From positions 174,788 through 234,697 of the forward strand of contig NZ_FNGH01000008.1 of assembly GCF_900102875.1 (NCBI RefSeq): DNA of 59,910 bases, read 5' to 3'. Below are positions 13,208 to 31,902 of this stretch, piece by piece. Source of the stretch: Franzmannia pantelleriensis. GTDB lineage: Bacteria > Pseudomonadota > Gammaproteobacteria > Pseudomonadales > Halomonadaceae. A model generated the notes under the pieces. The model did not search any database. It was not told the origin of the DNA and saw only the letters and a list, made by a program, of their open reading frames with translations. The translations under genes were made by a program, and so were the position numbers. How positions within the stretch are numbered: the first letter of the stretch is position 1; each line of letters starts with the position of its first letter.

Positions 13208-14796
13208 CAAGGTATCTCCTGGTAGTAGCCATCGACATGTGCCTGGCGCTGATTGCCGCTGCCGTAGCCTTCCTCGCCATCGAGACGGGCCAGGAAGGCG
13301 TCGGCCTGCTGGCGAATGGCATCGCGCTTGGCATCATCCATGCGCCTTAGCGAGCCGTAGATCAGCGCCATGCGCGGGTTATCCGACAGGCTGTCGGCGT
13401 GGCGCTCGAGGAAGTGCCAGTAGAGGCTGTTGAGTGGGCAGGCGTGGGTGCCGGTGATCTGCTTGGGATCGTAGCGGCACTGACGGCAGTGGTCAGACAT
13501 GCGATCGATATACTTGCCCGAGGCGCAGTAGGGCTTGGATCCCATCAGACCGCCGTCGGCGTGCAGCACCATGCCCAGGGTATTGGGCAGTTCGACCCAC
13601 TCGCAGGCGTCGGCATAGACCGCCAGGTACCAGTCACATAGCGCCTCCGGCGCGACACCGCAGAGCAGCGCGAAATTGCCGGTCACCATCAGCCGCTGGA
13701 TATGGTGGGCGTAGGCGTTGTCGTGGGTCATTTCGATGGCGCGTTTGAGGCAGCGCAGGTCGGTATCGCCGCTCCAGTAGCTGCTCGGCAGCCCGCGCTG
13801 AGCGCCCAGGTGATTACCTGTCTTGTAGGCGGGCATCTGCGTCCAGTACAGCCCGCGCACATATTCGCGCCAGCCGAGGACCTGGCGGATAAAGCCCTCC
13901 ACGGCGTTGAGCGGGGCGCGCCCCTCGTAGTATTCCCGCTCGGCGCGCTGGCACACCTCCTGCGGCGTCAGCAGGCCGAGATTGAGCGCCGGCGCCAGCC
14001 GCGAGTGGAACAGCCATGGCTCGGCGTCGCTGATGGCGTCCTGAAAGCGGCCGAAGTCGGGCAACGCGTGATCGAGGAAGTGGCGAAGATCGGCCAGCGC
14101 CTGGCGGCGGGTCACCGGCCAGTTGAACCCCTCCAGGCTACCGAAATGGTCGGCAAAGTGCTCGGCCACCAGCGCCAGCACCTCCTGAGTGATGGCGTCG
14201 TGACGATGACGCGGGGGCTCCGGGGGGCTGGCGTTGGCGGCGAGGGGCTGACGATTGTCATGGTCGAAGTTCCACTGGCCGCCGGCCGGCTGGTCGGCTT
14301 CCATCAGCAGGCCGCTGCGGCGACGCTGCTGGCGGTAGAAGTGCTCCATGCGCAGCGTCTTGCGGCCCTCGGCCCAGGCGGCGAAGTCGTCGGGGGTGGT
14401 GAAGAAGCGGGTGTCCTCGTGCAGCTGCCAGGGCAGGGTGGCGTTGCGGCGTGCGCGCATCGCTTGCCATAGTCGCCATTCACCCGGACGCACCGCCTGT
14501 ATGCTATCGCAGTCGTAGCGTTCGGCCAGGCGCTCCGCCTCGGCGAGCAGCGACTGGGCGTTGTCGTCGTCGTCGAGCCGGCTGTAGTGCACCCGGAAGC
14601 CCCGGGCCCTCAGTGCCTCGGCGAAATGACGCATGGCCGCCAGTATCATGGCGATTTTCTGTGGGTGGTGCGGTACGTAGCGGCCCTCGTCCTCGACCTC
14701 GCACATCGCCACAACGGCGTTGGCGGGGGCGTCTTGCAGGATCGCGAGATCGAGGCTGAGCTGGTCGCCGAGCACTAGCAGCAATGGCTTGGACAT
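13207..14796 (-). CDS. Fe-S bacterial cryptochrome/photolyase (FeS-BCP, (6-4) photolyase type)
   Basis: 529-aa member of the deoxyribodipyrimidine photolyase-related family (PhrB of Agrobacterium, CryB of Rhodobacter), which binds FAD, a lumazine antenna and a [4Fe-4S] cluster and repairs (6-4) photoproducts. Cys349, Cys437, Cys440 and Cys453 have exactly the spacing of the known cluster ligands (88, 3 and 13 apart). Other marks are LLLVLGDQLSLD at the start, NAYAHHIQRLMVTGNF and LHADGGLMGSKPYCASGKYI. The start at 14796 has AGG upstream. It overlaps the DUF393 gene. Confidence 0.94.
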   Translation of the reverse strand: MSKPLLLVLGDQLSLDLAILQDAPANAVVAMCEVEDEGRYVPHHPQKIAMILAAMRHFAEALRARGFRVHYSRLDDDDNAQSLLAEAERLAERYDCDSIQAVRPGEWRLWQAMRARRNATLPWQLHEDTRFFTTPDDFAAWAEGRKTLRMEHFYRQQRRRSGLLMEADQPAGGQWNFDHDNRQPLAANASPPEPPRHRHDAITQEVLALVAEHFADHFGSLEGFNWPVTRRQALADLRHFLDHALPDFGRFQDAISDAEPWLFHSRLAPALNLGLLTPQEVCQRAEREYYEGRAPLNAVEGFIRQVLGWREYVRGLYWTQMPAYKTGNHLGAQRGLPSSYWSGDTDLRCLKRAIEMTHDNAYAHHIQRLMVTGNFALLCGVAPEALCDWYLAVYADACEWVELPNTLGMVLHADGGLMGSKPYCASGKYIDRMSDHCRQCRYDPKQITGTHACPLNSLYWHFLERHADSLSDNPRMALIYGSLRRMDDAKRDAIRQQADAFLARLDGEEGYGSGNQRQAHVDGYYQEIP

Positions 14797-14809
14797 AGGT
14801 TGACCTGAA

Positions 14810-14837
14810 GTTATACAAATAATGCTGATAGTATAAC
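14810..14837. promoter_or_regulatory. inverted-repeat operator, LitR-like, at the FeS-BCP promoter
   Basis: Perfect inverted repeat GTTATAC (14810-14816), 14 nt, GTATAAC (14831-14837). Written as TATACA-N12-AGTATA (14812-14835), it matches 11 of 12 fixed positions of the T(G/A)TACA-N12-TGTA(C/T)A motif that I recall for Pseudomonas LitR/PplR light regulators. On the gene strand it overlaps a TATACT -10 box (14835-14830) with only a poor -35 box. Regulator binding is inferred. Confidence 0.6.
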
Positions 14838-14926
14838 GTGATTCTCCCCGGCGACGAGTCGGATGCTAGAATCGCTCTACGACTTCGACCCAACCTAGGC
14901 CTACTGCGGCTGCCGACAAACAAGTC

Positions 14927-15086
14927 CTAGGTTTGTACGAAAAGTCGGCGAGCGATGGCCAGACAAGGCAAAAGACGGCGAAAACGGACCGGGCTCGCGC
15001 GCGAGTTTACGGGGTGTAAATGAGTACTTTGAGCCGAATTTTAACGCCGTATGGGCGAGCGCAGACAGTTTTCGTACAGAGCCTAG
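14927..15086. repeat. MITE-like long palindrome upstream of hemH
   Basis: Ends are inverted repeats: CTAGG-TTT-GTACGAAAA (14927-14943) and TTTTCGTAC-AGAG-CCTAG (15069-15086), with a perfect 9-bp core. The centre is another hairpin, TTTAC-GGGGT-GTAAA (15006-15020), so the 160-bp unit is one long imperfect palindrome without an ORF. CTAG at both tips may be a target duplication. The flanks carry related CCTAG...CTGCGG strings. Interpretation as a non-autonomous mobile element is inferred. Confidence 0.65.
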
Positions 15087-15127
15087 CCTGCGGTAGCGCG
15101 GCGACCCAATTAAAAGGATGCCTCTGC

Positions 15128-16201
15128 ATGTCAGCAAGTGATGTGGAACTCGACCAGCCTGGCCAAGGCCGGCTGGCCCATGCCGGACCCGACCACCCGC
15201 CGGTGACTCGCGCCAAGGTCGGCGTGGTGCTCGCCAATCTGGGCACGCCAGACGCCACCGACTACTGGTCGATGCGCCGCTATCTCAATGAATTTCTCTC
15301 CGACAAGCGGGTCGTCGACTACGCCTCCTGGAAGTGGCAGCCGCTGCTGCAGGGCATCATCCTGACCAAGCGCCCGTTCAGTTCCGGCAAGGCCTATCGC
15401 AGTATCTGGAACGAGGAGAAGGATGAGAGCCCGCTGCTGACCATCACCCGCGACCAGACCGCCAAGTTTGCTGCACGGCTCGAGCGTGAGCTGGGCGACA
15501 AGGTAGTGGTGGACTTCTGCATGCGCTACGGCAACCCCTCCACCGATAGCGTGCTGCGGCGACTGCAGGCCCAAGGCTGCGAGAAGATCCTGTTCTTCCC
15601 GCTCTACCCGCAGTACGCCTCGCCCACCTCGGCGACGGCCAATGATCAGGCCTTTCGTACCCTGATGAAGCTCAAGTGGCAACCGGCGATCCGCACCGTG
15701 CCGGCCTACTTCGAGCACCCGGCCTACCTCGATGCGCTGGCGGCCTCGGTCACCGAGACCTATACGGCCGCCGAGTCGCGGCCGGACATCCTGGTGGCCT
15801 CCTACCATGGCGTGCCGAAGCGCTACCTGATGGAAGGCGACCCCTACCACTGCCAGTGCCAGAAGACCACGCGCCTGCTCAAGGAGCGGCTGGGCTGGGA
15901 CGACAGCCAGATCGTCACCGCCTTCCAGTCGCAGTTCGGGCCAGAGGAGTGGGTGGGGCCGCAGACCGTCGATCACGTCGCCGAGCTGGCACGCCAAGGC
16001 CACAAGCACATCGCGGTGATCTCGCCGGCCTTCGCCTCCGACTGCGTGGAGACCCTCGAGGAGATCAACGAGGAGATTCGTGACAGTTTCCTGCACGCCG
16101 GTGGCGAGCACTTCACCTATGTGCCCTGCCTCAACGATCGCGACGACCATATCGAGGCATTGGTGCAGGTGGCGCTTAACGAGCTGGGCGGTTGGATCTA
16201 A
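15128..16201 (+). CDS. hemH: ferrochelatase
   Basis: Inserts Fe2+ into protoporphyrin IX, the last step of heme synthesis. 357 aa: KVGVVLANLGTPDA near the start, PLYPQYASPTSAT, catalytic His in ASYHGVPKRYL (about residue 226) and the acidic helix AFASDCVETLEEINEE. ATG 15128 has AAGGA 9 nt upstream; the frame runs 108 nt further upstream into the palindromic element, but the homologous region begins near residue 25. The gene is divergent from the FeS-BCP operon; hemH and phr are also close together in Pseudomonas. Confidence 0.95.
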   Translation: MSASDVELDQPGQGRLAHAGPDHPPVTRAKVGVVLANLGTPDATDYWSMRRYLNEFLSDKRVVDYASWKWQPLLQGIILTKRPFSSGKAYRSIWNEEKDESPLLTITRDQTAKFAARLERELGDKVVVDFCMRYGNPSTDSVLRRLQAQGCEKILFFPLYPQYASPTSATANDQAFRTLMKLKWQPAIRTVPAYFEHPAYLDALAASVTETYTAAESRPDILVASYHGVPKRYLMEGDPYHCQCQKTTRLLKERLGWDDSQIVTAFQSQFGPEEWVGPQTVDHVAELARQGHKHIAVISPAFASDCVETLEEINEEIRDSFLHAGGEHFTYVPCLNDRDDHIEALVQVALNELGGWI

Positions 16202-16632
16202 CGCCGCAGGCGCCAGCGGCGCTTCTGCCCCTCGCTGGCAGGGCGCCGCGGCCGCGGCGGACGCTCTACCCGGCCTTGGCCGACGTCCTCATCGCGCAGC
16301 TCGGGGGGCGAGCCGCGGGTGTCACGGGTGTAGCGCAGGTGCATGTGCAGGCCGGTCTTGGCCAGCATATGGCCGGTGACCGGGGCAGTGATGAAAAGAA
16401 ACAGCGTGATCAGCAGCTCCTGCACATGAATCCCCGGCTGCACCACGCTGAAATAGACCATCGACGCCATCAGGATACAGCCAATGCCCAGGGTGGTGCC
16501 TTTGGTCGGCCCGTGCAGGCGCATGAAGAAGTCCTTGAACTGCAGCATGCCCAGCGAGCCGACGAAGGCGAACACGCCGCCGGCGATCAGCAGCAGGCTG
16601 ATCACCCACTCGAGTAATACATAGAACGCCAT
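16198..16632 (-). CDS. mrpG: Mrp antiporter subunit G (locus 1)
   Basis: 144-aa membrane protein with three predicted helices. Family signatures: SLLLIAGGVFAFVGSLGMLQFKDFFMRLHGPTKGTTLGIGCILMAS and FLFITAPVTGHMLAKTGLH (read in segments), typical of PhaG/MnhG. The C-terminal tail is long, polar and Arg/Pro-rich (about 45 residues), longer than usual. Start ATG 16632. Last gene of the leftward A(B)-C-D-E-F-G operon. The 3' end overlaps the hemH stop by 4 bp on opposite strands. Confidence 0.9.
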   Translation of the reverse strand: MAFYVLLEWVISLLLIAGGVFAFVGSLGMLQFKDFFMRLHGPTKGTTLGIGCILMASMVYFSVVQPGIHVQELLITLFLFITAPVTGHMLAKTGLHMHLRYTRDTRGSPPELRDEDVGQGRVERPPRPRRPASEGQKRRWRLRR

Positions 16633-16643
16633 GCCGTGCCCCC

Positions 16644-16913
16644 CTATTCGATGATATCGCCGCGCAGCAGGTAGCGGCAGATCGCCATGGTGCTGACGAA
16701 GCCGAGCATGGCGATCAGGATCGCCGCTTCGAAGTACACCTTGGTGTTGAGCCACAGCCCCAGCAGCACGATCAGGGCGATGGAGTTGACGTAGATGGTG
16801 TCGAGGGCCAGCAGCCGGTCGGGAATGTCGGGCCCGCGTGCCAGGCGTGCCACGTTCATGGCCAGGGCGGCGACGATCAGCGCCAGGCTGATCCACAGTG
16901 CCGTGTCTAGCAT
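16644..16913 (-). CDS. mrpF: Mrp antiporter subunit F (locus 1)
   Basis: 89-aa three-helix protein with the subunit F motif RLARGPDIPDRLLALDTIYVNSIALIVL. Small subunit required for assembly of the Mrp/Pha complex in the inner membrane. It starts 7 nt inside the end of the subunit E gene and is followed 11 nt later by subunit G. Length is normal for MnhF/PhaF. Confidence 0.93.
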   Translation of the reverse strand: MLDTALWISLALIVAALAMNVARLARGPDIPDRLLALDTIYVNSIALIVLLGLWLNTKVYFEAAILIAMLGFVSTMAICRYLLRGDIIE

Positions 16914-17404
16914 TCGAAGATCTCCTTGAGCGGCCGCTCATAGCGGGTGCGAATCGCCTCGACCAACGCCTGCTCGTCGTCGAGGTCGAGCACATGGATC
17001 AGCAGCGTTGAGCGGTCGAGGCGAATGTTGGTCGAGACGGTGCCGGGGGTCAGGGTGATGGTATTGGCCAGCAGGGTAATGGTCAGCGGCTCGCGCACCA
17101 GCAGCGGATACTCGACGAAGCCCGGGCGTGGCGCCCGCCCGGGCTTGAGAATCAAATAGCTGACCTCGAGGTTGGCCTTGAGGATGTCCCACAGCACCCG
17201 GGCGACGAAGCGGCACAGCGTCCAGGGGTGACGCACCCTCGGCAGCGGTTCCCACAGGCGTCGTGTCAGTAGCGGTATGCCCATCGCCAGCAGCACGCCC
17301 AGCAGCAGTTGGCCGGGGGCCAGGCTGCGTACCAGCAGCAGCCAGATGATCAGTAGCACCAGCGATAGAGTAGGGGTCGGCAGTAGGCGGCCCAGCGATG
17401 TCAT
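16907..17404 (-). CDS. mrpE: Mrp antiporter subunit E (locus 1)
   Basis: 165-aa membrane protein: two N-terminal hydrophobic segments, then the cytoplasmic domain with TITLLANTITLTPGTVSTNI, the hallmark of MnhE/PhaE. The start overlaps the subunit D stop by 4 bp (ATGA). Its paralogue at 27102 shares the ANLISLTPGTLS version of this motif. Structural subunit of the antiporter complex. Confidence 0.93.
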   Translation of the reverse strand: MTSLGRLLPTPTLSLVLLIIWLLLVRSLAPGQLLLGVLLAMGIPLLTRRLWEPLPRVRHPWTLCRFVARVLWDILKANLEVSYLILKPGRAPRPGFVEYPLLVREPLTITLLANTITLTPGTVSTNIRLDRSTLLIHVLDLDDEQALVEAIRTRYERPLKEIFEC

Positions 17405-18921
17405 GGTCGGGCTCCTGGGTCGGCGGCCAGCGGCGCGGTCTCGGGTACATCCAGCGTGGCGTCAGTGCGGGCCAACTGCGCAGCGGTGGCCTCGGCGTAG
17501 CCGCTCACCGGCCCGGCGAACAGTGTCAGCAGTGGCAGGCTGGCCAGTAGCCAGAGTACCCCGACGAGCTGCGCGGGATGCGCGCGCTGGGTCCCTGGCT
17601 TGCCCTGGTGGCTGGCCCAGAACAGCACCGACCCGGCTCGCGACAGCGCGATCAGGGCGGCCAGGGTGGCCAGCAGCAGTAGTGCCCACAGCCACAGCCC
17701 CTGTTCGTCATCGGCCGCCTGCAGCAGCCACATCTTGCCCAGCGCGCCGGACAGCGGCGGCAGGCCGACCATGCCGATGGCGGCGATCATGAACAGCCCG
17801 CCGAGCAGGCGCTGCTGGTTCAGACGCCGACCGCACACCAGTCGCGTGCCGGCCTGGCCGCGCTGGCGGTCAATCAGCTCGGCGATCAGGAACAGCGCAG
17901 CGGCGACCAGCGTCGAGTGCAGCAGGTAGTAGAGCAGCGCTGCATCGCTGGCGCGCTGGTCCATGCCAACGGCCGCCAGTAGTGCCCCCACCGAGATTAA
18001 TACCAGGTAGGCCACCAGCATACGCAGGTCGCGGGCGCCCAGTGCACCGATCATGGCCAGCGCCATGGTGGCTAGCCCGGCGACCCATAGCCAGGTCTGG
18101 ATCGGTGCACTGGCGGGGGTATCGGTGAAGACCAGCGACTCGACGCGCAGCAGTGCATAGACGCCGACCTTGGTCATGATCGCGAACAGCGCGGCGACCG
18201 GTGCCGGGGCAGCGGCATAGGTGCGCGGGAGCCAGAAGTAGAGCGGCAATGCGGCGGCCTTGAGGCTGAACACCACCACCAGCAGCAGTGCACCGGTGGT
18301 GGCCAGCGCCGCCTGATCGCCGTCCAGGGCGGCCATGCGTTGGCCCATATCGACCATGTTGAGGGTGCCGGTGGCGCCGTAGAGGACCCCTAGCGCAATC
18401 AGGAACAGCGCCGAGCCGATCAGGTTGAGCACCACGTAGTGCAGCCCGGCGCCCACCCGGGCCTTGCCACCGCCGTGCATCAACAGCGCGTAGGAGGCCA
18501 GCAGCAGGATCTCGAAGAACACGAACAGGTTGAACAGGTCGCCGGTCAGGAAGGCGCCGTTGAGCCCCATCAGCTGCAGCTGAAAGAGGCCGTGGAAATG
18601 GCTGCCCTGGGCGTCTTCGCCGGCGCAGGCGAACGTCACGCAGCCCAGCGCCAGCACTGCGGTGAGAACGACCATCAGGGCCGCCAGGCGGTCGAGGGTC
18701 AAGGCGATGCCGAATGGCGCCTGCCAGTTGCCCAGCGCATAGTGGAGTATCTGGTCGCTGCCGGCCTGGTCCAGCAGCAGTGTGGAGATGCCGACCAGCA
18801 GCAGCGTGGCGGTGATGCTGACCAGACGCTGGCGTGCGTCGTCGAGGCGCAGGCCGAGCAGTACCAGTGCCGCCAGCATCGGCAGCAGGATCGGCAGTAT
18901 CGGCAGATGCTGGGCCATCAT
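17401..18921 (-). CDS. mrpD: Mrp antiporter subunit D (locus 1)
   Basis: 506-aa polytopic protein of the NuoL/M/N proton-translocating antiporter family. The conserved helices show DLFNLFVFFEILLLASYALL (Glu in a membrane helix), SLKAAALPLYFWLPRTYAAAPAPVAALFAIMTKVGVYALLR (in segments) with the broken-helix lysine. Part of the A(B)CDEFG operon; it overlaps C upstream and E downstream by 4 bp each. Confidence 0.94.
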   Translation of the reverse strand: MMAQHLPILPILLPMLAALVLLGLRLDDARQRLVSITATLLLVGISTLLLDQAGSDQILHYALGNWQAPFGIALTLDRLAALMVVLTAVLALGCVTFACAGEDAQGSHFHGLFQLQLMGLNGAFLTGDLFNLFVFFEILLLASYALLMHGGGKARVGAGLHYVVLNLIGSALFLIALGVLYGATGTLNMVDMGQRMAALDGDQAALATTGALLLVVVFSLKAAALPLYFWLPRTYAAAPAPVAALFAIMTKVGVYALLRVESLVFTDTPASAPIQTWLWVAGLATMALAMIGALGARDLRMLVAYLVLISVGALLAAVGMDQRASDAALLYYLLHSTLVAAALFLIAELIDRQRGQAGTRLVCGRRLNQQRLLGGLFMIAAIGMVGLPPLSGALGKMWLLQAADDEQGLWLWALLLLATLAALIALSRAGSVLFWASHQGKPGTQRAHPAQLVGVLWLLASLPLLTLFAGPVSGYAEATAAQLARTDATLDVPETAPLAADPGARP

Positions 18922-19258
18922 CGCGGTGGCTCCTCGTCGCCCTGTTTACCATCGACATGGTCGTTACCCAGCTCGCTGCGTGCGCGAATCGCCAGGATCA
19001 CCACGAAGGCGGTCATGGCAAAGCCGATCACGATAGCGGTCAGTACCAGCGCCTGGGGCAGCGGATCACTGGGTGACAGCGACTCGCCGATCACTGGGGC
19101 GGCGTGGGTGTTGAGCCCGCCCATCGAGAACAGGAACAGGTTGACCGCATAGGAGAGCAGCGTCAGGCCGACGATCACCGGGAAGGTGCGGCCGCGCAGC
19201 ATCAGGAATAGTCCGCAGGCGGTCAGGGTGCCGACCACCCCGGCGAATAGCGCTTCCA

Positions 19259-19259
<1 letters not shown>
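18918..19259 (-). CDS. mrpC: Mrp antiporter subunit C (locus 1)
   Basis: 113-aa NuoK-like protein with three helices: GTLTACGLFLMLRGRTFPVIVGLTLLSYAVNLFLF, then [23 protein letters not shown] (in segments), the latter being the family signature. Start ATG 19259 overlaps the subunit A/B stop (TGATG). A longer open frame upstream to 19541 is only a shadow of the A/B gene. Length is normal. Confidence 0.93.
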
Positions 19260-22051
<2,792 letters not shown>

Positions 22052-22219
22052 CGAAGATGGGTCCCGTCGCAGCGGGGCACGCTTGGGGCGTTGCCGTTGG
22101 GTTATTGTCGTGGCGTGGCGACACTGGGAAACCAGTGCGTCAGGCGATGAATTTCCAGAAAAAACAGGGAGTAAGCTCGGAAAGTGCCGGTCTTTTCCGA
22201 TGCGGCGGACCGCTATTTC

Positions 22220-22316
22220 TTGCCAACTATCACATTGATTCTATAGGCTTTACCTCCACCATTGTAGGCTTGCATGTCGCCCCGCGGTTAATCATTAGGC
22301 GTAGGAAATTTATAAC
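22220..22316 (+). promoter_or_regulatory. candidate promoters of the second Mrp operon
   Basis: The 326-bp gap between the divergent Mrp operons (22052-22377) holds no gene. Two rightward candidates are TTGCCA (22220-22225)-N16-TATAGG (22242-22247) and TTAATC (22288-22293)-N17-TATAAC (22311-22316). AT content is locally raised, fitting a regulatory region. I see no clear leftward promoter or palindromic operator. Confidence 0.5.
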
Positions 22317-22377
22317 ATTGCGCCATCCACCGCCCTGCGTGCGCGGGTGACGACGACGACAAGGAGAGACCCGCGTT

Positions 22378-24720
22378 ATGCAACTTGCCGTGCTTTCAGG
22401 CTTCGTGCTGGCCGCCTTCGCTCCGCTGCTGCAGCGTTGGTGCGCCGCACGTACCAGCCTGGTATTGGCGCTCTATCCCGCCGCGCTGGCGCTGTGGCTG
22501 TTGACCCAGCTGCCGGCCGTGATGGGCGGTGAGGTGCTGGTGTTCAGCCTGGAGTGGGTGCCGTCGCTGGGCATGAGCCTGACCTTCGTGCTCGACGGCC
22601 TGTCGATGCTGTTCGCGCTGCTGATCACGGTGATCGGCACCTTCGTGCTGATCTATGCCGGCGGCTACCTCAAGGGTCACCCCGATCTGGTGCGCTTCCA
22701 CGTGGTAATCGTCGCCTTCATGGTGTCGATGCTGGGGCTGGTGCTGGCCGACGGTCTGATGACGCTGTTCGTGTTCTGGGAGCTGACCAGCATCACCTCC
22801 TACCTGCTGATCGGCTTCAACCACACCGATCTCGAGGCGCGCAAGTCGGCCCGCCAGGGGCTGTTCGTCACCGTCGGCGGCGGCCTGGCGCTGATGGCGG
22901 GCCTGGTGATGTTGGCCATCGCCGGCGATAGCTGGTCGCTGCAGGAGCTGCTGAGCAGTGGCGATGTGCTGCGTGATCACGCGCTCTATCTGCCGATGCT
23001 GCTGTGCCTGCTGGGCGGCGCTTTTACCAAGTCGGCGCAGTTCCCCTTCCATTTCTGGCTGCCCAACGCCATGGCCGCACCGACCCCGGTATCGGCCTAT
23101 CTGCACTCGGCGACCATGGTCAAGGCCGGTATTTACCTGCTGGCGCGTCTGCACCCGGGGCTCGGCGGTACCGAGGCCTGGATCGGCATCCTCTCGGTGG
23201 TCGGTGCCCTGACCATGTTCACAGGTGCTTTCCTGGCGCTGCGCCACACCAACATCAAGAAGCTGCTCGCTTACTCGACGATCATGGCGCTGGGTACCCT
23301 GACCATGCTGCTCGGCATCGGCACCGAGGGGGCGCTGATCGCGTTCGTCACCTTCCTGCTGGCCCACTCGCTGTACAAGGGCGCGCTGTTCATGATTGCC
23401 GGTATTCTCGACCATGAGACCGGCACCAAGGATGTCACCGCCATGGGCGGGCTGCGCCGGCTGATGCCGGTGACCGCGCTAGTGGCGTGTATCGCAGCGC
23501 TGTCGCTGGCCGGGGTGCCACCGCTGTTCGGCTTCATCGGCAAGGAGCTGATGTTCGAGTCGGTGCTCGAGGCCGGCAGTTTCCGTGCCATCATCTTCCT
23601 GCTCAGTTTCTCCGCGGCGATCTTCACCATCGCCGTGGCCGCCATCGTGGTGCTGCGGCCGTTCTTCGGCGAGCGCCGCGAGACGCCCAAGGCCGCCCAC
23701 GAGGCACCCAGTGCCATGCTGGCAGGACCGGTGGGGCTGGCCATCCTGTCGCTGCTATTCGGCCTGGTGCCGGTGCTGGCCGGCACCGGCCTGCTCACCG
23801 CGGCGGCGTCGGCGGTGGCCGGTGAGTCGCTGTCGGTGTCGCTGTCGCTGTGGCATGGCATCAATCTGCCGCTGATCATGTCGCTGATCAGCCTGGCGCT
23901 CGGCTACCTACTGTTCCGCCACTGGGATCGCGTGCGTGGCAACCTGTCGCGGCTCGACCCGCTGTTCGCCCACGGCCCGGAGGCCGGCTACGAGAACCTG
24001 ATGGATGGCATCGTGCGGATCTCCGAGTGGCAGACCCGTGTGCTGCAGAACGGCTATATGCGCAACTACATCATGGTCATGGTAGTGGTATTGATCGCGC
24101 TGGTGGGCAATTCGCTGCTGCTGCGTCATGCGCCCGCCTTTGCCATCAGCTTCGACGTGCAGTTCCACGAGGCGGTGGTGACCGGCTTGATGGTGGCCGG
24201 CGCGCTGTTTGCCTGCATCTCTCGCTCGCGGCTCGGTGCGGTGGCCTCGGTGGGCATCATGGGGTTCTGTATCGCCCTGACCTTCATTCTGTTCAGTGCG
24301 CCTGATCTGGGTATCACCCAGCTGCTGGTCGAGACGCTGACCGTGATCCTGCTGATTTTGGTCCTGTTCCGGCTGCCGCGTTTCGCCAGCCTCTCGACGC
24401 CACTCGAGCGCGTGCGGGACCTGGTGGTGGCCGGCTCCATGGGGGTGCTGATCATGTTGTTGATCCTCACCGTGGTGGCCAGCAACCAATTCGTGCCGGT
24501 GTCCGGTTACATGATCGAGAACAGCGTTCCGCTGGCTCATGGTCGCAATATCGTCAACGTCATCCTGGTCGACTACCGCGCACTGGATACGCTGGGCGAG
24601 ATCTTCGTGCTGGCACTGGCGGCGATCGGCGTGATCGCGATGCTCAAGCTACGCGCGCCCAAGCCGGAGGCCAAGGGCGCCGGCAAGGGCCAGGGAGCCA
24701 AGGAGTCTGCCGATGGTTAA
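22378..24720 (+). CDS. mrpA: Mrp antiporter subunit A (locus 2)
   Basis: 780-aa NuoL-like core subunit of a seven-gene Na+(or K+)/H+ antiporter. Motifs: [18 protein letters not shown] with the membrane Glu, [48 protein letters not shown], and the A-type C-terminus ([43 protein letters not shown]). It stops before the B domain, unlike the paralogue at 19259. AAGGAGA precedes ATG 22378. It overlaps subunit B by 8 bp. Confidence 0.95.
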
Positions 24721-25144
24721 GTCGGGTACCATCATTCTGAATACGGCGGCGCGGCTGCTGATGCCGCTGCAGCTGCTGTTCTCGGTGTTTCTGCTGCTGC
24801 GCGGCCACGATGAGCCGGGTGGTGGGTTCATCGCCGGCCTCGTCGCGGCGGGGGCCTTCATTCTGTACCTGTTTGCCTTCGGGGTGACGGCGACCAAGGA
24901 AGTGCTGCGCATGGTCGATCCCCGCGACCTGATCGGCATGGGGTTGCTGCTGGGCACCCTGTCGATTCTGCCGGCCTGGTTCGTTGGCGAGCCGTTCTTT
25001 ACCGCACAGTGGTGGGAGATTCCCGGCATCGACTTCAAGGCCTCGACGCCGCTGATCTTCGATATCGGTGTCTACCTGGCGGTGCTGGGTACCCTGCTGG
25101 CAGTGATCATGACGCTGATGGAGGTGGACAAGGATGAGCCCTGA
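24713..25144 (+). CDS. mrpB: Mrp antiporter subunit B (locus 2)
   Basis: 143-aa four-helix protein with the MnhB motif [22 protein letters not shown] and the acidic end LMEVDKDEP. It corresponds to the C-terminal part of the fused protein of locus 1. It overlaps the end of subunit A by 8 bp and is translated from the same message. Length is normal for a stand-alone B. Confidence 0.94.
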
Positions 25145-25198
25145 CCACGTGACCCAGGCGCAAGATGTGATGCCTACGCCCATGATTCAGGAGGTGCC

Positions 25199-25546
25199 AT
25201 GGAACCGCTGATGGCGCTCGCCATAGGCCTGCTCTACGCCACCGCGATCTACATGATGCTGCGGCGTTCCATCGTCAAGCTGGTGATCGGCTTGATGCTG
25301 CTGTCCAATGCCGCCAACTTGCTGATCTTCACCTCGGCGGGGATGACCCGCGGCGCACCGCCGCTGATCCCCGAAGGGGCCCTGGCGCCGGCCGGTCAGG
25401 TCGCAGACCCTTTGCCTCAAGCGCTGGTGCTGACGGCGATCGTGATCGCCTTCGGCGTGCTGGCCTTCGCCGTGGTACTGATTCGACGCGCCTATGAAAT
25501 CGTCAAGGCCGATGATCTGGACAAGATGAAGGATACCGACACGTGA
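25199..25546 (+). CDS. mrpC: Mrp antiporter subunit C (locus 2)
   Basis: 115-aa NuoK-like subunit with [23 protein letters not shown] and [25 protein letters not shown] as signatures. A very strong ribosome-binding site (CAGGAGGTG) lies just ahead of ATG 25199, after a 54-nt gap that is the only sizeable gap in the operon. The stop overlaps the GTG start of subunit D. Confidence 0.94.
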
Positions 25547-27105
25547 GGCCCGAAGTCGCACTCCCCGTTATCATTCCGCTGCTCTGTGGCGCCGTATCGC
25601 TGCTGTTCTGGCGTTCGCGGCCCATGCAGCGCTTCATCGCCGTGGCGGGCACTCTGGCGCTGCTGGTGGTGGGGCTATGGCTGATCACCAGCGTGTCACG
25701 CGAGGGCTATGTGGTGATCCACATGGGCAGTTGGCAGGCGCCCTACGGGATCAGCCTGGTGGCCGACATGCTCAGCGCGATCATGATCCTGCTGACCGGT
25801 ATCATCGGTCTCGGGCTGGCAATCTACTCACTGGCCTCGACCAGTACCCAGCATGAGAAGTTTGGCTTTTATCCGCTGATGCATCTGCTGCTGGCGGGGG
25901 TTGCCGGCGCCTTCCTCACCGGCGATATCTTCAACCTCTATGTGTGGTTCGAGGTGATGCTGGTGGCCTCCTTCGCACTGCTGATCCTCGGCGGGGAGAA
26001 GGCGCAGATGGAGGGGGCGATCAAGTATGTGACGCTCAACCTGCTGGCCTCGGTGATCTTCCTCACCGCTATCGGCCTGGTCTATGGGATGGTGGGCACG
26101 CTCAATATGGCCGATATTGGCCAGCGCCTGGCCGAGGCCGAGAACCAGGGGATGGTCGAGGTGCTGGCGATCATGTTCATGATCGCTTTCGGCATCAAGG
26201 CCGCTGCCTTTCCACTGTTCTTCTGGCTGCCGGCTTCCTACCACACGCCAGCGGTGGCGGTGTCGGCGCTGTTTGCCGGTCTGCTGACCAAGGTCGGTGT
26301 CTACTCGCTGTTCCGGGTGTTCACCTTGATGTTCGACCAGACCATGCCTTACGTGCAGGACATCCTGCTGTGGGGGGCGGCCTTCACCATGGTCACCGGG
26401 GTGCTGGGCGCGGCGGCGCAATATGAGTTCCGGCGTATCCTGTCGTTCCATATCGTCAGCCAGATCGGCTACATGATCCTGGGTCTCGCTCTGTTCACGC
26501 CGCTGGCACTGGCCGGCGGGATCTTTGCGGTGATGCACAACATCATCGTCAAGACCAATCTGTTCCTGATCAGCGGCATTACCAACCGGCTGCAGGGCAC
26601 CTACCAGCTCAAGAAGATGGGCGGGCTGTTCAAGGAGCGTCCGTGGCTGTCGGTGGCGTTCTTTCTGTCGGCCTTCTCGCTGGCCGGGATACCGCCGCTG
26701 TCGGGGTTCTTCGCCAAGTTCGTGATCGTCCGTGCGGGCATCGAGGCCGAGGCCTACGTGGTCACTGCGGTGGCGCTGGCGGTGGGGCTGATGACGCTCT
26801 ATTCGATGGTCAAGATCTGGAACGAAGTGTTCTGGAAGTCGCTGCCAGAGGATAATCTGGTTCCGGAAAGCAGTACCCCCAGCGGTGACGAGGGGCGTCT
26901 GGTCAAGAGCTCGTTGGGGCTGATGTACCTGCCCGTTGCGATCCTGGCGCTGTTCGCAGTACTGATCGGCGTCTTCGCTCAGCCGCTGATGGAGATGATG
27001 CTGATGGCCGGTGAACAGCTGATGGACCCCCAAGGCTACATGGATGCGGTGCTGGGGGAGGAGCGGACGGTACTGCTGCGTGATGCTCTGGAGGTGAGTC
27101 CATGA
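25543..27105 (+). CDS. mrpD: Mrp antiporter subunit D (locus 2)
   Basis: 520-aa NuoL/M/N-family subunit starting with GTG at 25543 (GTGA overlap with subunit C). Motifs: [22 protein letters not shown] with the membrane Glu, [36 protein letters not shown] and [16 protein letters not shown]. It is clearly divergent from the locus 1 paralogue (for example HTP in place of AAAPAP after the broken helix). It overlaps subunit E by 4 bp. Confidence 0.95.
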
Positions 27106-27575
27106 CCGGTGCGATCTGGAACCTGCTGCTGGCGCTGGCCTGGGTGATCCTGGGTGGCGAGTTCACCGGCATCAATCTGGTGGTGGGCTTGATCTTCGGC
27201 TACGTGACCCTGGTGCTGATCGAGCCGCAGGTGCCTGCGCTCAAAGGCTACCCGGGGCGAATTCCGAGGATCCTGATGTTCATCGGCTTCTTCATCAAGG
27301 AACTGATCCTCGCCAACCTGCGCGTTGCCTTCGATATACTCACTCCCCCTTGGCACATGCAGCCGGGGGTGATCGCGATGCCGCTCAAGGCCGAAACCGA
27401 GCTCGAGATCACCATGGTGGCCAACCTGATTTCGCTGACCCCGGGCACCCTGAGCCTGGATGTCTCCGACGACAAGCGGGTGCTCTACATTCACGCGATG
27501 TTCCTCGACAACGAAGAGGAGCTGCGCCAAAGCCTGCAAGAGATGGAGAGTCGCGCATTGGCGCTGTTCCGCTGA
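27102..27575 (+). CDS. mrpE: Mrp antiporter subunit E (locus 2)
   Basis: 157-aa protein with two or three N-terminal hydrophobic helices and the cytoplasmic PhaE/MnhE domain TMVANLISLTPGTLSLDVSDD. Starts in an ATGA overlap with subunit D. A second, diverged copy of the subunit at 16907. Length is normal. Confidence 0.94.
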   Translation: MTGAIWNLLLALAWVILGGEFTGINLVVGLIFGYVTLVLIEPQVPALKGYPGRIPRILMFIGFFIKELILANLRVAFDILTPPWHMQPGVIAMPLKAETELEITMVANLISLTPGTLSLDVSDDKRVLYIHAMFLDNEEELRQSLQEMESRALALFR

Positions 27576-27602
27576 CCGCTCGACACCCTGTGAGGAGTGA
27601 CC

Positions 27603-27872
27603 TTGGATACCGTGATCCTGATAAGCCAGGTATTGATGGGCCTGGCGATGATTCTCGCCTTCGTGCGCCTGGTGCGTGGCCCCAGTCTGCCCGACCGGGT
27701 GGTGGCGTTGGAACTGTTTGCCAGCATCATCGTCGGGCTGGTTGGGGTGCATGCGATCAGTTCCGACCTGTCGAGTTTTCTCGATGCCGCAATCGTGATT
27801 GCGCTGATGGCGTTCCTGTCCGCTATCGGTTTCGCTCGTTTTCTGGAACGTGGAGGGCCTCGCGATGATTGA
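27603..27872 (+). CDS. mrpF: Mrp antiporter subunit F (locus 2), TTG start
   Basis: 89-aa three-helix subunit with FVRLVRGPSLPDRVVALELFASIIVGL. GTG 27597 is possible as a start, but the only Shine-Dalgarno (TGAGGAG, 27591-27597) overlaps it. TTG 27603 has correct spacing and gives the family-typical N-terminus MDTVILISQ. It overlaps subunit G by 8 bp. Confidence 0.9.
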   Translation: MDTVILISQVLMGLAMILAFVRLVRGPSLPDRVVALELFASIIVGLVGVHAISSDLSSFLDAAIVIALMAFLSAIGFARFLERGGPRDD

Positions 27873-28269
27873 GGTGATCAAGGGCACACTGATCATCGTC
27901 GGTGCGCTGTTCATGCTGCTGGCGTCGCTGGGCATCCTGCGTCTTCCGGATCTGCTGACGCGCATGCACGCCACCACCAAGGCGGCGGCCCTGGGGGTGA
28001 TCCTGGTCATGCTGGCGGTGGCCATGCATTTCGCCGAGGTGGGCGTGGTGGCGCGAGCCTTCGCGATCATCACTTTCATTCTGATGACCGCCCCGGTGGC
28101 TGCGCATGTGATTGGTCGCGCCGGTTACTTCGTCGGCTCCAAGCTGTGGAGTGGTACGGTCAAGGATGAACTCAAGCCTAACTATGATCCGCTGACCCAT
28201 GAGCTGAAAAGCGGCCTGGAAACCGAGGCCAATGCTGCGCGTCAGCCCAAGCACACCGACAAACCCTGA
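27865..28269 (+). CDS. mrpG: Mrp antiporter subunit G (locus 2)
   Basis: 134-aa three-helix subunit: GALFMLLASLGILRLPDLLTRMHATTKAAALGV and FILMTAPVAAHVIGRAGYF (in segments) are PhaG/MnhG signatures. ATG 27865 has TGGAGGG 7 nt ahead; an in-frame GTG at 27850 is rejected for lack of one. The polar tail (about 40 residues) is also seen in the locus 1 copy. Last gene; a strong terminator follows. Confidence 0.93.
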   Translation: MIEVIKGTLIIVGALFMLLASLGILRLPDLLTRMHATTKAAALGVILVMLAVAMHFAEVGVVARAFAIITFILMTAPVAAHVIGRAGYFVGSKLWSGTVKDELKPNYDPLTHELKSGLETEANAARQPKHTDKP

Positions 28270-28294
28270 CGGCAGGTCGAACATGCGGCGATGA

Positions 28295-28321
28295 CAGGGC
28301 CACCCCAGCGGGGTGGCCCTG
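28295..28321 (+). terminator. terminator of the second Mrp operon
   Basis: Perfect 12-bp stem CAGGGCCACCCC/GGGGTGGCCCTG with a 3-nt loop (AGC), 25 nt after the subunit G stop, followed by TTGCGTTGG. Very stable; it separates the antiporter operon from the cryptochrome cluster. Confidence 0.85.
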
Positions 28322-28360
28322 TTGCGTTGGTGGCTACGGCACGATGAGGCTGTTCTTTCG

Positions 28361-28396
28361 TGTACATAGGGTGTAGATTGATATCATTATTGTATA
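28361..28396 (+). promoter_or_regulatory. AT-rich promoter/operator region of the Cry-DASH operon
   Basis: The region contains TGTACA (28361-28366), TGTAGA (28372-28377), a TATCAT -10-like box (28382-28387) and TGTATA (28391-28396). CATTATTGTATA (28385-28396) is nearly identical to CATTATTTGTATA on the gene strand at the FeS-BCP promoter. No good -35 box is present, as at that promoter. Shared light control is inferred. Confidence 0.5.
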
Positions 28397-28462: not shown

Positions 28463-28615
28463 ATGCGTCGTACCGGCGATCTGCCTATCAAGCAGTGTGA
28501 GCAGTGCCAGCGGCCTTATCGCTGGCGACGCAAGTGGGCGCGCTGCTGGAATGAGGTGCGCTACTGCAGTGAACGCTGTCGCCGTAATGCGCGACTCGCC
28601 AGGAGGCGGGCATGA
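28463..28615 (+). CDS. DUF2256 zinc-ribbon-like micro-protein
   Basis: 50-aa basic protein with the DUF2256 pattern: KQCEQCQRPYRWRRKWA, then WNEVRYCSERCRRNARLARRR. Cys12, Cys15, Cys35 and Cys39 could bind zinc. The stop overlaps the Cry-DASH start (ATGA), so it is the first gene of that operon. DUF2256 is known as a neighbour or fused domain of DASH cryptochromes, but I know of no established function. The upstream ribosome-binding site is weak (GAGAGTGAG). Confidence 0.9.
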   Translation: MRRTGDLPIKQCEQCQRPYRWRRKWARCWNEVRYCSERCRRNARLARRRA

Positions 28616-30036
28616 GCACCACGATTGTGTGGCTGCGTCACGATCTACGGGTGTCTGACAATCCGTTGTTCAGTTCACTGGAGGGCACCGCGGCCTTGGC
28701 CTGTGTCTATGTGCTGGATGCCCGTGAGCTGCGTCAATGGGCGCCTGAGCAGAGCGCTAGCCGCTGCGGTCCGGCGCGACTGCGCTTCCTGTGGCAGAGT
28801 TTGATGGCGCTACGAGGAGAATTGCTCAAGCGTGGCAGCGACCTGCTGGTGCGCATCGGTGACCCCGTCGACATCATCGCCGAGCTGGCCCTGCGGCTGC
28901 AGGCCGATCACGTTCTGGTGCGTGAAGAGCCTGGCCCTGAAGAGCGTGCTCAGCTCGAGCGCCTGACGCACTCGTTGGATCAGCGCTGCCGGCTGCAGCC
29001 GGTAGAATCGGGCATGCTGTTTGAGCGAGGACAGCTCCCCTTTGCGCTGGACGAGTTACCGTCGTCGTTTTCGGCCTTTCGACGCCGGTTGGAACACGAC
29101 TGGCAGGTAACGGATCCTCGGCCTGCCCCACTGACCCTGCCGCTGTGGCCGGATGGCGCCCCACGCGGCCTGCCTCCTCTGGATCAGGTCTGTCCGCGTG
29201 CTGCGGCATGGCGGCCGAGCGATGCCACCAGCCTAGACATGCAAGGGGGTGAAGAAGCGGCTCGTGCCAGGCTTGATCACTACCTCTGGGACAGCAACGC
29301 GGTGGCCACCTACAAGACCACCCGCAACGGCCTGCTGGGAGCTGACTTTTCGACGCGCTTCTCTCCGTGGCTCGCCCACGGCTGCTTGTCAGCGCGTCAG
29401 GTTCACGCGGAAGTGCGCGCCTGGGAGGCGGAGCACGGTGCCAATGCGTCAAGCTACTGGGTCATCTTCGAGCTGCTATGGCGTGACTACTTTTACTGGG
29501 CCGCCTGGCAGGAGGGGGCCGCACTGTTCGGTGCCGAAACGCTGCCGGCGCCCGATGCAAACCTGGTGGCATGGTGCGAGGGCAGCACCGGCGTGCCCTT
29601 CATTGACGCCGCCATGCGTGAGCTCGGCACCAGCGGCTGGCTTTCCAATCGTGCTAGACAGAACGTGGCCAGTTTTCTGGTCAAGGACCTTGGCGGCGAT
29701 TGGCGGCTAGGCGCCGCCTGGTTCGAGCACTGCCTGATCGACTACGATGCCTCCAGCAACTGGGGCAACTGGCGCTACGTGGCCGGGATTGGCCGCGATC
29801 CACGCCAGCACCGCTACTTCAATGTGCTCAAGCAGGCGCGCCACTATGATCCTCAAGGGGACTATGTGGCGCACTGGCTGCCGGCACTCCAGACGCTGCC
29901 CCAAGGGGCGTCCCGCCACCAGCCCTGGCAGGCGGCTCCCGCGCGCTTCGCGGCGCCGCTTGTCGAGCCACCGGCATGGCGTGAATGGCGCATCCCAGCG
30001 TTAGGCGGTGTCGAACCGGTAGGGCCGGATGAGTAA
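28612..30036 (+). CDS. DASH-family cryptochrome
   Basis: 474-aa FAD protein of the photolyase/cryptochrome superfamily. The N-terminal alpha/beta antenna domain begins TTIVWLRHDLRVSDNPLF. The FAD domain has the DASH-type run GWLSNRARQNVASFLVKDL, then DWRLGAAWFEHCLIDYD and SNWGNWRYVAGIGRDPRQHRYFN and YDPQGDYVAHWLP. These match Cry-DASH rather than class I CPD photolyases. Such proteins repair CPDs in single-stranded DNA and may signal. It overlaps the DUF2256 gene upstream (4 bp) and the DUF3429 gene downstream (8 bp). Confidence 0.92.
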   Translation: MSTTIVWLRHDLRVSDNPLFSSLEGTAALACVYVLDARELRQWAPEQSASRCGPARLRFLWQSLMALRGELLKRGSDLLVRIGDPVDIIAELALRLQADHVLVREEPGPEERAQLERLTHSLDQRCRLQPVESGMLFERGQLPFALDELPSSFSAFRRRLEHDWQVTDPRPAPLTLPLWPDGAPRGLPPLDQVCPRAAAWRPSDATSLDMQGGEEAARARLDHYLWDSNAVATYKTTRNGLLGADFSTRFSPWLAHGCLSARQVHAEVRAWEAEHGANASSYWVIFELLWRDYFYWAAWQEGAALFGAETLPAPDANLVAWCEGSTGVPFIDAAMRELGTSGWLSNRARQNVASFLVKDLGGDWRLGAAWFEHCLIDYDASSNWGNWRYVAGIGRDPRQHRYFNVLKQARHYDPQGDYVAHWLPALQTLPQGASRHQPWQAAPARFAAPLVEPPAWREWRIPALGGVEPVGPDE

Positions 30037-30496
30037 GGGGCGTGGGATGCAGTTGCCAACCCGATTGACCACACGGCTGGGTGCCGCCGGCCTGCTACCG
30101 TTCGCCATGACGCTGACGATGGCCTGGGTGGCACCGTCCGATTGGCAAGCCTGGGCGGTCAGTGCGTTTCTCTTCTACAGCGCGGTGATTCTGTCGTTTC
30201 TCGGCGGCGTCCAGTGGGGCGTGGCAATGAGCCTGGATGCGCCAGAGGATGCAGCGTTTGCCGCACGAATGCTGCGCAGCATGCTGCCCAGCCTGATTGC
30301 CTGGCCGGCGCTGCTGCTGTCGGATCTGGCCGCCACGGTAATCCTGCTGGCGGGATATCTGTTGATCCATGCCTATGAAAGTCAGCCTGTCAGCCGGGCG
30401 CGACTGCCAGGATGGTACCGGTCGCTGAGGCGCTCTCTGACGCTGTGCGTCGTCGGCGGACATGGGCTGATGATACTGCGTCTCGTGATGGGCTGA
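30029..30496 (+). CDS. DUF3429 membrane protein
   Basis: 155-aa protein with four or five predicted membrane helices and the DUF3429 features FYSAVILSFLGGVQWGVAM and SMLPSLIAWPALLL. Start ATG 30029 overlaps the Cry-DASH stop by 8 bp; ATG 30047 (MQLPTRL) is an alternative. DUF3429 genes occur next to photolyases in other proteobacteria, but the function is unknown. The overlap argues for co-expression with the cryptochrome. Confidence 0.85.
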   Translation: MSKGRGMQLPTRLTTRLGAAGLLPFAMTLTMAWVAPSDWQAWAVSAFLFYSAVILSFLGGVQWGVAMSLDAPEDAAFAARMLRSMLPSLIAWPALLLSDLAATVILLAGYLLIHAYESQPVSRARLPGWYRSLRRSLTLCVVGGHGLMILRLVMG

Positions 30497-30588: not shown

Positions 30589-31902
30589 ATGCGTAAGCTT
30601 TTCTTCACTTCGCTCGTATTCACTATGCTTGCCGGCTGCCAGTCGGGTGCCCAGCTGGCACCGCCGGCTGCCGCCGACGAGTCCGATTCCCACGCCAGCG
30701 ATGTTGCAACCGATAGTGCCGTCGAATCCGACACGACTGCCTCGAGTGGCGGCGCTGCCAGCAACGACAATGGTGCCGAGCGACCCGCCAGCTTCATGGC
30801 CTGGGTCGATGACTTCCGCCGTCATGCGCGCAGCGAAGGTATCGCCAGGTCGACCCTCGATGAGGCCTTCAGCAATGTGCGCTATCAGCCACGCATCATC
30901 GAGCTCGACCGCTCGCAGCCGGAGTTCGTGCGACCCATCTGGGAGTATCTCGACACCGCGGTCTCCTCGACGCGGATCAATCAGGGCCGTGACAAGCTCG
31001 CCGAGCATCGTGACACCGCCCGAGAAATGGAGCAGCGCTATGGCGTGCCGGCCGAGATCGTGGTGGCGATCTGGGGCATCGAGAGCAACTACGGCGGCAA
31101 TTTCGGCAGCTTCTCGACCATTGATGCCCTGGCTACCCTGGGCTATGACGGCCGCCGTCAGAGCTTCGCCCGCGGCGAGCTGATGGCAGCGCTGCGTATC
31201 ATCGAGCAGGGCGATATCGCCGCCGAGCGGATGATCGGCTCGTGGGCCGGCGCCATGGGGCACACCCAGTTCATCCCTTCGAGCTTCGAGGCCTACGCCG
31301 AGGATGGCGATGGCGATGGGCGCCGTGATATCTGGGGCAGCATTCCCGACGTCATGGCGTCGACCGCCAACTACCTGGCGCGAGCCGGCTGGCAGCGCGG
31401 GCAGCCGTGGGGTGTCGAAGTCGAACTGGGCAGTGGGTTCGACTACTCCCAGGCCGACGATACCCGCCTGAGCAGCCGCCAGTGGGCCGAGCGCGGGGTG
31501 CGCCCGGTGAACGGCGGCAGCCTGCCGGACTTCAGTGACGCGGCGGTGGTGGTGCCGGCGGGCGCTAACGGGCCGGCGTTCCTGGTCGGCCCCAACTATC
31601 GGGCGATCCTGCGCTACAACAACGCCACCAGCTATGCGCTGGCGGTGGGCACCCTGGCCGATCAGATCGCCGGGCGCAGCGGCGTGGTCCAGGGGTGGCC
31701 GCGTAGCGAGCAGCCGCTGACCCGCAGCCAGGTGCGCGAGCTACAGGAGCGCCTCAACGCCGCCGGCTTCGATACCGGCACGCCGGATGGCGTGTTTGGC
31801 CCCAACACTCGCAGCGGCCTGCGCAGCTATCAGCGCGCCGAGGGGCTGGTACCGGATGGCTTTGCCACCCTCAGCCTGCTGGAGCGCCTACAGCGCCGCT
31901 AG
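30589..31902 (+). CDS. lytic murein transglycosylase, MltB family, with PG-binding domain
   Basis: 437-aa lipoprotein. Signal MRKLFFTSLVFTMLAGC with lipobox LAGC (Cys17), then a low-complexity Ser/Asp/Ala linker (about 20-65). The SLT_2/MltB domain follows, with catalytic Glu165 in IWGIESNYGG and the motif MGHTQFIPSSFEAYA. A peptidoglycan-binding-1 domain (about 368-437, QVRELQERLNAAGFDTGTPDG) ends the protein. It cleaves glycan strands from the outer-membrane side, releasing anhydro-muropeptides, which ties in with the recycling pair amgK/murU below. Confidence 0.93.
   Translation: MRKLFFTSLVFTMLAGCQSGAQLAPPAAADESDSHASDVATDSAVESDTTASSGGAASNDNGAERPASFMAWVDDFRRHARSEGIARSTLDEAFSNVRYQPRIIELDRSQPEFVRPIWEYLDTAVSSTRINQGRDKLAEHRDTAREMEQRYGVPAEIVVAIWGIESNYGGNFGSFSTIDALATLGYDGRRQSFARGELMAALRIIEQGDIAAERMIGSWAGAMGHTQFIPSSFEAYAEDGDGDGRRDIWGSIPDVMASTANYLARAGWQRGQPWGVEVELGSGFDYSQADDTRLSSRQWAERGVRPVNGGSLPDFSDAAVVVPAGANGPAFLVGPNYRAILRYNNATSYALAVGTLADQIAGRSGVVQGWPRSEQPLTRSQVRELQERLNAAGFDTGTPDGVFGPNTRSGLRSYQRAEGLVPDGFATLSLLERLQRR

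Follow-up and report, generated by a model that had tools for sequence, protein, structure and literature searches.

A DUF2256 micro-protein gene and a DASH-type cryptochrome gene as a putative light-induced photorepair cassette beside an Mrp antiporter operon in Franzmannia pantelleriensis

The stretch of DNA analyzed here (the window) comprises 59,910 nucleotides of the 4.4-Mb Franzmannia pantelleriensis genome (RefSeq assembly GCF_900102875.1, contig NZ_FNGH01000008.1, positions 174,788 to 234,697). Within it, a DUF2256 micro-protein gene, a DASH-type cryptochrome (Cry-DASH) gene and a DUF3429 membrane protein gene follow one another on the forward strand (Table 1), the first two overlapping by 4 bp and the last two by 8 bp. 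Coordinates and profile scores bore out all three open reading frames (ORFs) and both overlaps, as described in an earlier reading of the same letters (the original prediction). Cry-DASH aligned to positions 2-430 of the 431-position TIGR02765 model in a profile search, and three of its five best PDB matches were entries named Cryptochrome DASH. A hydropathy scan of the DUF3429 protein found six hydrophobic windows in about four clusters. The DUF2256-Cry-DASH pair, termed the cassette below, and DUF3429 stand between an Mrp (Mnh) antiporter operon and mltB, which is followed by three further genes; mnhG and mltB were tested by profile. Genes under the remaining mnh letters are presumed from their operon position, and those after mltB we take to be rsmE, phaR and purD. 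The mnhF family is present in a relative (L166; G and L codes denote sample genomes and loci of the survey).

Table 1. Features of the cassette locus and of the second photorepair spot in the window
Feature	Position	Strand	Basis
DUF2256 protein	28463-28615	+	50 aa; PF10013 66.9 bits (cut-off 25)
DASH-type cryptochrome (Cry-DASH)	28612-30036	+	474 aa; TIGR02765 480 bits (cut-off 317)
DUF3429 membrane protein	30029-30496	+	155 aa; PF11911 102.3 bits (cut-off 39.1)
Putative light operator, TGTA repeats 11 bp apart (TGTACATAGGGTGTAGA)	28361-28377	+	Conserved spacing-11 repeat
Strong hairpin between mnhG and cassette	28288-28327	+	Minimum free energy -32.7 kcal/mol (28288-28335), z -5.1
Mrp (Mnh) Na+/H+ antiporter operon, upstream of cassette	22378-28269	+	mnhG by PF03334
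MltB-type lytic transglycosylase, right border of slot	30589-31902	+	TIGR02283 372.7 bits; syntenic in relatives
FeS-BCP/CryB-type (prokaryotic 6-4 photolyase family) gene	13207-14796	-	PF04244 276.7 bits
DCC1-like thiol-disulfide oxidoreductase	12806-13210	-	PF04134 88.5 bits; 4-bp overlap with FeS-BCP gene
Ferrochelatase, divergent from FeS-BCP gene	15020-16201	+	PF00762 358 bits

The DUF2256 protein is basic, with 17 Lys and Arg against 4 Asp and Glu. It carries the four cysteines that had been pointed out in this 50-residue protein, arranged as CxxC...CxxxC in a PF10013 match above cut-off, and Cys 12, 15, 35 and 39 were invariant in 45 aligned sequences. An AlphaFold model with a mean predicted local distance difference test score (pLDDT) of 86.7 consisted of a hairpin and a C-terminal helix; together with the invariant cysteines, this order of elements is that expected of a treble clef, and the protein may therefore be described as treble-clef-like and predicted to bind zinc. 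A passage of PMC4047054 places DUF2256 in the TRASH metal-binding clan. Like YacG (4tma) and the FCS/TRASH zinc fingers (2w0t; same passage), DUF2256 is a small four-cysteine protein in which a CS..C motif precedes a C-terminal helix; it differs in the invariant LP and WR.KW motifs of its own and in the weakness of the matches. The best Foldseek matches of the model were YacG on gyrase (4tma, E 0.88, prob 0.60) and an FCS zinc finger (2w0t, E 1.3), and a sequence search of the PDB gave nothing below E 0.1. A Pfam listing to E 10 held PF10013, zf-MYND and DUF2116 and no YacG profile, with the HMMER filters dropping weak matches. In excerpts from the literature, DUF2256 is counted as a Pfam domain common in bacterial proteins of 50 aa or less (PMC11796252), and no excerpt that names it gives it a role in photorepair.

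Linkage of the three genes was surveyed in 101 genomes of the window's own family, where Cry-DASH exceeded its cut-off in 40 genomes, DUF2256 in 66 and DUF3429 in 40. DUF2256 lay within 100 bp of Cry-DASH in 31 of the 40 Cry-DASH genomes (29 upstream, 2 downstream), and DUF3429 lay directly downstream of Cry-DASH in 22 of them. The full triple was present in 19 genomes. The DUF2256-Cry-DASH pair occurred without any DUF3429 match in 10 genomes, and Cry-DASH with DUF3429 but no PF10013 match in three (G062, G091 and G097), the first of which has a DUF2256-like stretch about 2.5 kb downstream by tblastn. Linkage in the family exceeds chance, and the three genes are not one evolutionary unit. In another genome of the window's genus (G060, C1:394875-394952), which has no Cry-DASH above cut-off, a partial DUF2256 match (model positions 3-28) is possibly a decaying remnant.

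The tight overlaps were conserved only partly. With the start nearest to the preceding stop chosen, a -4 junction of DUF2256 and Cry-DASH was possible in 12 of 19 side-by-side loci, the window included, and at a 13th locus (L315) it was one of two possible starts. The -8 overlap of Cry-DASH and DUF3429 was the nearest start in 3 of the 14 loci with both genes (the window, L304 and L309) and was reached through an alternative start in L305. The statement that DUF2256 is found near or fused to Cry-DASH held for nearness, in 31 of the 40 genomes; six long DUF2256 frames (219-583 aa) read by eye contained no fusion to a photolyase, and no wider search for fusions was made.

Beyond the family, DUF2256 neighborhoods were read in two sets. 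A phylum sample of 249 genomes held 53 DUF2256 places in 52 genomes, of which 49 were read with flanks (G000, G010, G015 and the second place of G334 were left out); the named loci were the best 80 of 580 confirmed and are not a random sample. Photolyase neighbors were counted by tblastn and classed by the best tblastn query. A photolyase-family gene lay within 300 bp of DUF2256 at 22 of the 49 phylum loci (13 FeS-BCP, 7 of a third class, 2 DASH), and at four further loci one lay within 2.5 kb and at two within 6 kb. At the named loci, a photolyase was adjacent in 41 of 80 (20 FeS-BCP, 16 third class, 5 DASH) and within 2.5 kb in another 5. The suspected association with cryptochromes and photolyases thus extends well beyond the window, and DUF2256 is a general part that adjoins genes of three classes of these enzymes. 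The FeS-BCP class was identified by a PF04244 match and by CryB and PhrB entries in the PDB; the third class matched PF00875 and PF03441, and three examples of it reached no NCBIfam cut-off. Assignment of the third class to PhrSph98, a bifunctional cyclobutane pyrimidine dimer/6-4 photolyase, was set aside by description, since a passage of PMC9649867 relates the PhrSph98 group to class II photolyases, against PF00875 and PF03441 here.

At photolyase-free loci, the scan of DUF2256 neighbors, which covered 101 of 109 listed proteins, found malate synthase G in 9 of 101 and asparaginase in 4 of 101. Malate synthase G stood beside DUF2256 in Rhodobacteraceae-type loci (L107, L109, L142, L146 and others); clustering of neighboring ORFs had suggested photolyases at L107, L109 and L146, which was ruled out because tblastn found none. 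No DUF2256 match was obtained by tblastn in 50,697 phage records, and 128 of 72,556 plasmid records contained one, mainly from Pantoea (57).

The presence of DUF2256 tracks that of the iron-sulfur (6-4)-type photolyase FeS-BCP. Among the 249 phylum genomes, DUF2256 and FeS-BCP were each found in 52, and 45 had the two together (odds ratio 175, p 1.7e-34); presence or absence of the two agreed in 235 genomes, and the 45 shared genomes were spread over 19 family codes. All 52 DUF2256 genomes had a match to TIGR02765, taken as a cryptochrome/photolyase profile, at E <=0.001. Among the control genomes, Caulobacter vibrioides gave matches to DUF2256, FeS-BCP and DUF3429. When only the 116 photolyase-positive genomes were counted, DUF2256 had an odds ratio of 52 for FeS-BCP, against 6.1 for Cry-DASH and 2.0 (p 0.09) for MnhG, the control. 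Distances in the 45 genomes, with FeS-BCP gene ends estimated from an assumed length of 1530 bp, were at most 300 bp for 15 pairs, each with both genes on one strand; the count rose to 20 pairs at up to 2 kb and to 26 at up to 15 kb. The FeS-BCP/CryB/PhrB group of prokaryotic (6-4) photolyases is thus a phyletic companion of DUF2256 that is also present in the window, 13.7 kb from it; the family's DUF2256, however, adjoins Cry-DASH, and the window's FeS-BCP gene adjoins a DCC1-like gene.

Upstream of the cassette, the hairpin that follows mnhG is kept in four congeners (window included) and has no clear T run; it is a probable terminator of the Mrp operon. The TGTA repeat lies between this hairpin and DUF2256, and about 50 bp around it were well conserved in the same four congeners. 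TGTA followed 11 bp on by TGTA or TATA was present in 17 of 21 upstream regions of Cry-DASH units (19 before DUF2256 and 2 before Cry-DASH, four of the 21 from congeners), compared with 8 or fewer at other spacings from 6 to 24 and 0.26 of 21 expected from letter shuffles. A repeat at spacing 10 or 11 was found in none of 85 upstream regions of six other genes at the same loci, some of these regions being coding, and in none of 18 DUF3429-only loci. The strict pattern occurred at three places genome-wide, including that of Table 1, and no known light gene was recognized at the other two.

The TGTA repeat resembles CarH/LitR light operators. A passage of PMC9304148 describes CarH-type repressors as binding tandem 11-bp repeats of the form nnnnTnnACAn; the putative operator shares this period and the TnnACA core in its first unit, and differs in that its second unit is not TnnACA and that the candidate regulator has no match to a B12-binding Pfam family. 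Passages of PMC9758184 report that class II LitR binds TGTACA-N12-TGTACA and that cryB and PME7070 of Pseudomonas mendocina form a light-inducible two-gene unit. These Pseudomonas LitR/CarH units resemble the cassette as conceived here in pairing a photolyase-family gene with a co-transcribed gene under light induction and in their TGTACA half-sites, but their enzyme is CryB rather than Cry-DASH, and their half-sites stand in a TGTACA-N12-TGTACA arrangement rather than at 11-bp spacing. In Vibrio cholerae, according to a passage of PMC5241685, blue light raises the expression of operons that contain both Cry-DASH genes.

The candidate regulator is a MerR-family gene (L329:7012-8019; G000:C23:44000-57000) located beside a photolyase gene (PF00875/PF03441) in the window's genome, with SnoaL, SDR, flavin adenine dinucleotide (FAD) oxidoreductase, DUF1365 and Cfa genes nearby. 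A likeness to the light-induced pmlR1/phrB region of P. mendocina, as a passage of PMC9758184 gives it, lies in a MerR gene accompanied by phr, SDR, FAD oxidoreductase and Cfa genes. Reading by eye showed two copies of TGTACA at a distance of 22 bp ahead of the likely ATG of this gene, inside its called 5' end. The sole PF02607 match in the genome falls in a 1240-aa frame on another contig.

The place of DUF3429 was examined in all 18 family genomes that carry it without an adjacent Cry-DASH. DUF3429 stood straight behind mnhG on the same strand in nine (G015, G036, G050, G061, G071, G081, G096, G051 and G054), and Mrp-like genes adjoined it in the opposite direction in six (G002, G009, G022, G026, G072 and G089, the last by an mnhD-like match only); no Mrp-like gene was near it in three (G024, G044 and G077). 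One of the nine, G051, has the slot without the cassette, in the order mnhG, DUF3429, mltB, rsmE, phaR, purD. Cry-DASH adjoins DUF2256 or DUF3429 in 33 other genomes; among the 20 of these for which longer stretches were read, mnhG lay directly upstream in 14 and mltB downstream in 18. In a tree of 24 mnhD proteins (33 candidates, nine dropped as short or weak mnhD), whose deep forks were weak, cassette-only and cassette-plus-DUF3429 loci were interleaved; DUF3429 has therefore probably been gained or lost several times. From the slot comparison and the tree together it follows that the cassette and DUF3429 evolve separately. The 22 genomes with Cry-DASH and DUF3429 side by side largely have a single place in common and do not represent 22 independent events, and the Mrp antiporter, DUF3429 and mltB more likely form the older slot, with DUF3429 here an older neighbor. 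In the phylum sample, 16 genomes carried both DUF3429 and Cry-DASH; the two were adjacent in the window's genome and in none of the 15 outside the family, so that no Cry-DASH/DUF3429 linkage was found there beyond one syntenic slot. The commonest DUF3429 neighbors in the phylum were RNase H (8/100) and LytB (6/100), from 100 scanned proteins of 160 listed. The slot comparison illustrates that genes may overlap within an operon without being partners.

Collectively, we favor, with a probability of about 0.55, the reading that the locus is a light-induced photorepair cassette in an older slot, and that DUF2256 is a treble-clef-like accessory of photolyase-family enzymes. DUF2256 and Cry-DASH would form the cassette, with its own promoter, inside the Mrp antiporter/DUF3429/mltB neighborhood. 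In the dark, a CarH/LitR-like MerR repressor would probably sit on the TGTA repeats with their 11-bp spacing; light would release the repressor, and DUF2256 and Cry-DASH would then be made by coupled translation. As a small, basic, presumably zinc-bound protein, DUF2256 would most likely serve cryptochrome/photolyase-family enzymes generally as an adaptor that binds nucleic acid or a partner; Cry-DASH would not be the only such enzyme, and the FeS-BCP (6-4)-type photolyase would be the foremost. DUF3429 would be transcribed along because it is next door, and would probably be an inner-membrane, energy- or redox-related protein outside the Cry-DASH machine. The zinc micro-protein adaptor of the original prediction thus gains from the photolyase association and the predicted zinc-finger-like fold (weak Foldseek matches notwithstanding), whereas its membrane anchor finds no support. 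The link between DUF2256 and photolyases suggests a function, open to experiment, for a protein that has had none assigned; if DUF2256 does assist photolyases, in vitro studies of the bacterial enzymes may have missed a natural partner.

Several observations weigh against this reading. Thirty of the 66 family genomes with DUF2256 lack Cry-DASH above cut-off, and DUF2256 is therefore not tied to Cry-DASH; no photolyase-family gene lay within 6 kb of DUF2256 at 21 of the 49 phylum loci and 34 of the 80 named loci. The co-occurrence statistics take genomes as independent, with no correction for phylogeny, and over all 249 genomes the control MnhG itself gave an odds ratio of 6.0 with DUF2256 (p 6.5e-8), which shows habitat bias. 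The repeat pattern was defined after the upstream regions had been seen, and 4 of the 21 regions lack the spacing-11 repeat. Its second unit departs from TnnACA, reading TGTAGA or TGTACT in most loci, and of the window's two units the first alone has the exact core. The candidate MerR repressor had MerR helix-turn-helix matches only and none to a B12-binding Pfam family. DUF3429, in turn, occurs together with FeS-BCP in 38 genomes, with an odds ratio of 14.7 in the photolyase-positive set. It is no more than 6 kb from DUF2256 in 4 of the 249 phylum genomes (G000, G107, G188 and G223) and 3 of the 80 named loci (L090, L091 and L139; L091, a Halomonas, is likely the same genome as G095 of the family survey). 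Given this co-occurrence and this nearness to DUF2256, calling DUF3429 a mere neighbor may be too strong; 37 phylum genomes carry both DUF3429 and DUF2256. DUF3429 is recurrently accompanied by a DCC1-like gene and a short-chain dehydrogenase (G107, G188, G239 and G255).

More tentatively, DUF2256 might be the first dedicated bacterial photolyase accessory, a zinc finger of 45-50 aa docking on FeS-BCP, Cry-DASH and the third class and needed for lesion access or processing in the cell. Such a role would explain the agreement of DUF2256 and FeS-BCP in 235 of 249 genomes. A rival of rather low probability is that DUF2256 is a regulon-mate only, sharing light or photo-oxidative-stress promoters with photolyases and acting elsewhere, for example as a YacG-like restraint on gyrase or replication during damage. 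The best Foldseek match to gyrase-bound YacG, the many DUF2256 genes that are not beside photolyases and the light-operator-like repeats upstream would all fit such a role. The E-values of the Foldseek matches are not significant, however, and no YacG match appeared in the Pfam listing to E 10, from which the HMMER filters drop weak matches; moreover, the presence of DUF2256 follows FeS-BCP far more than MnhG, and DUF2256 keeps close same-strand spacing with three enzyme classes.

With regard to DUF3429, we consider it possible, with a similarly low probability, that the protein belongs with the Mrp antiporter, or with membrane energetics more broadly, and is light-regulated here only by read-through. 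Its position directly behind mnhG in nine genomes (in G015 overlapping by 4 bp, given a TTG start) agrees with this, as does the fungal DUF3429 protein of Botrytis, which a passage of PMC4767927 describes as mitochondrial and whose deletion raises reactive oxygen species. Mrp subunits, however, were absent from the 25 commonest families of scanned DUF3429 neighbors outside the family, and among photolyase-positive genomes the association of DUF3429 with MnhG was not significant (odds ratio 2.1, p 0.09), in contrast to that with FeS-BCP. The three-part complex of the original prediction, with DUF2256 as adaptor to Cry-DASH and DUF3429 as membrane anchor or output, could draw on the triple in 19 of 101 family genomes, the overlaps within the window's genus and the nearness of DUF3429 to DUF2256 in G107, G188 and G223, outside the family, and in L090 and L139, but is improbable given DUF3429 behind mnhG without Cry-DASH in 9 of 18 genomes, the pair persisting without DUF3429 in 10, and adjacency in 0 of 15 genomes outside the family.

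The window contains a second photorepair spot (12806-16201), formed by the FeS-BCP gene, the DCC1-like gene that overlaps it and the divergent ferrochelatase gene (Table 1). Between the two spots, two Mrp-type antiporter operons, one per strand, occupy 16198-28269. In two other genomes, FeS-BCP and MnhG were likewise no more than about 15 kb away from DUF2256 (G010) or DUF3429 (G015).

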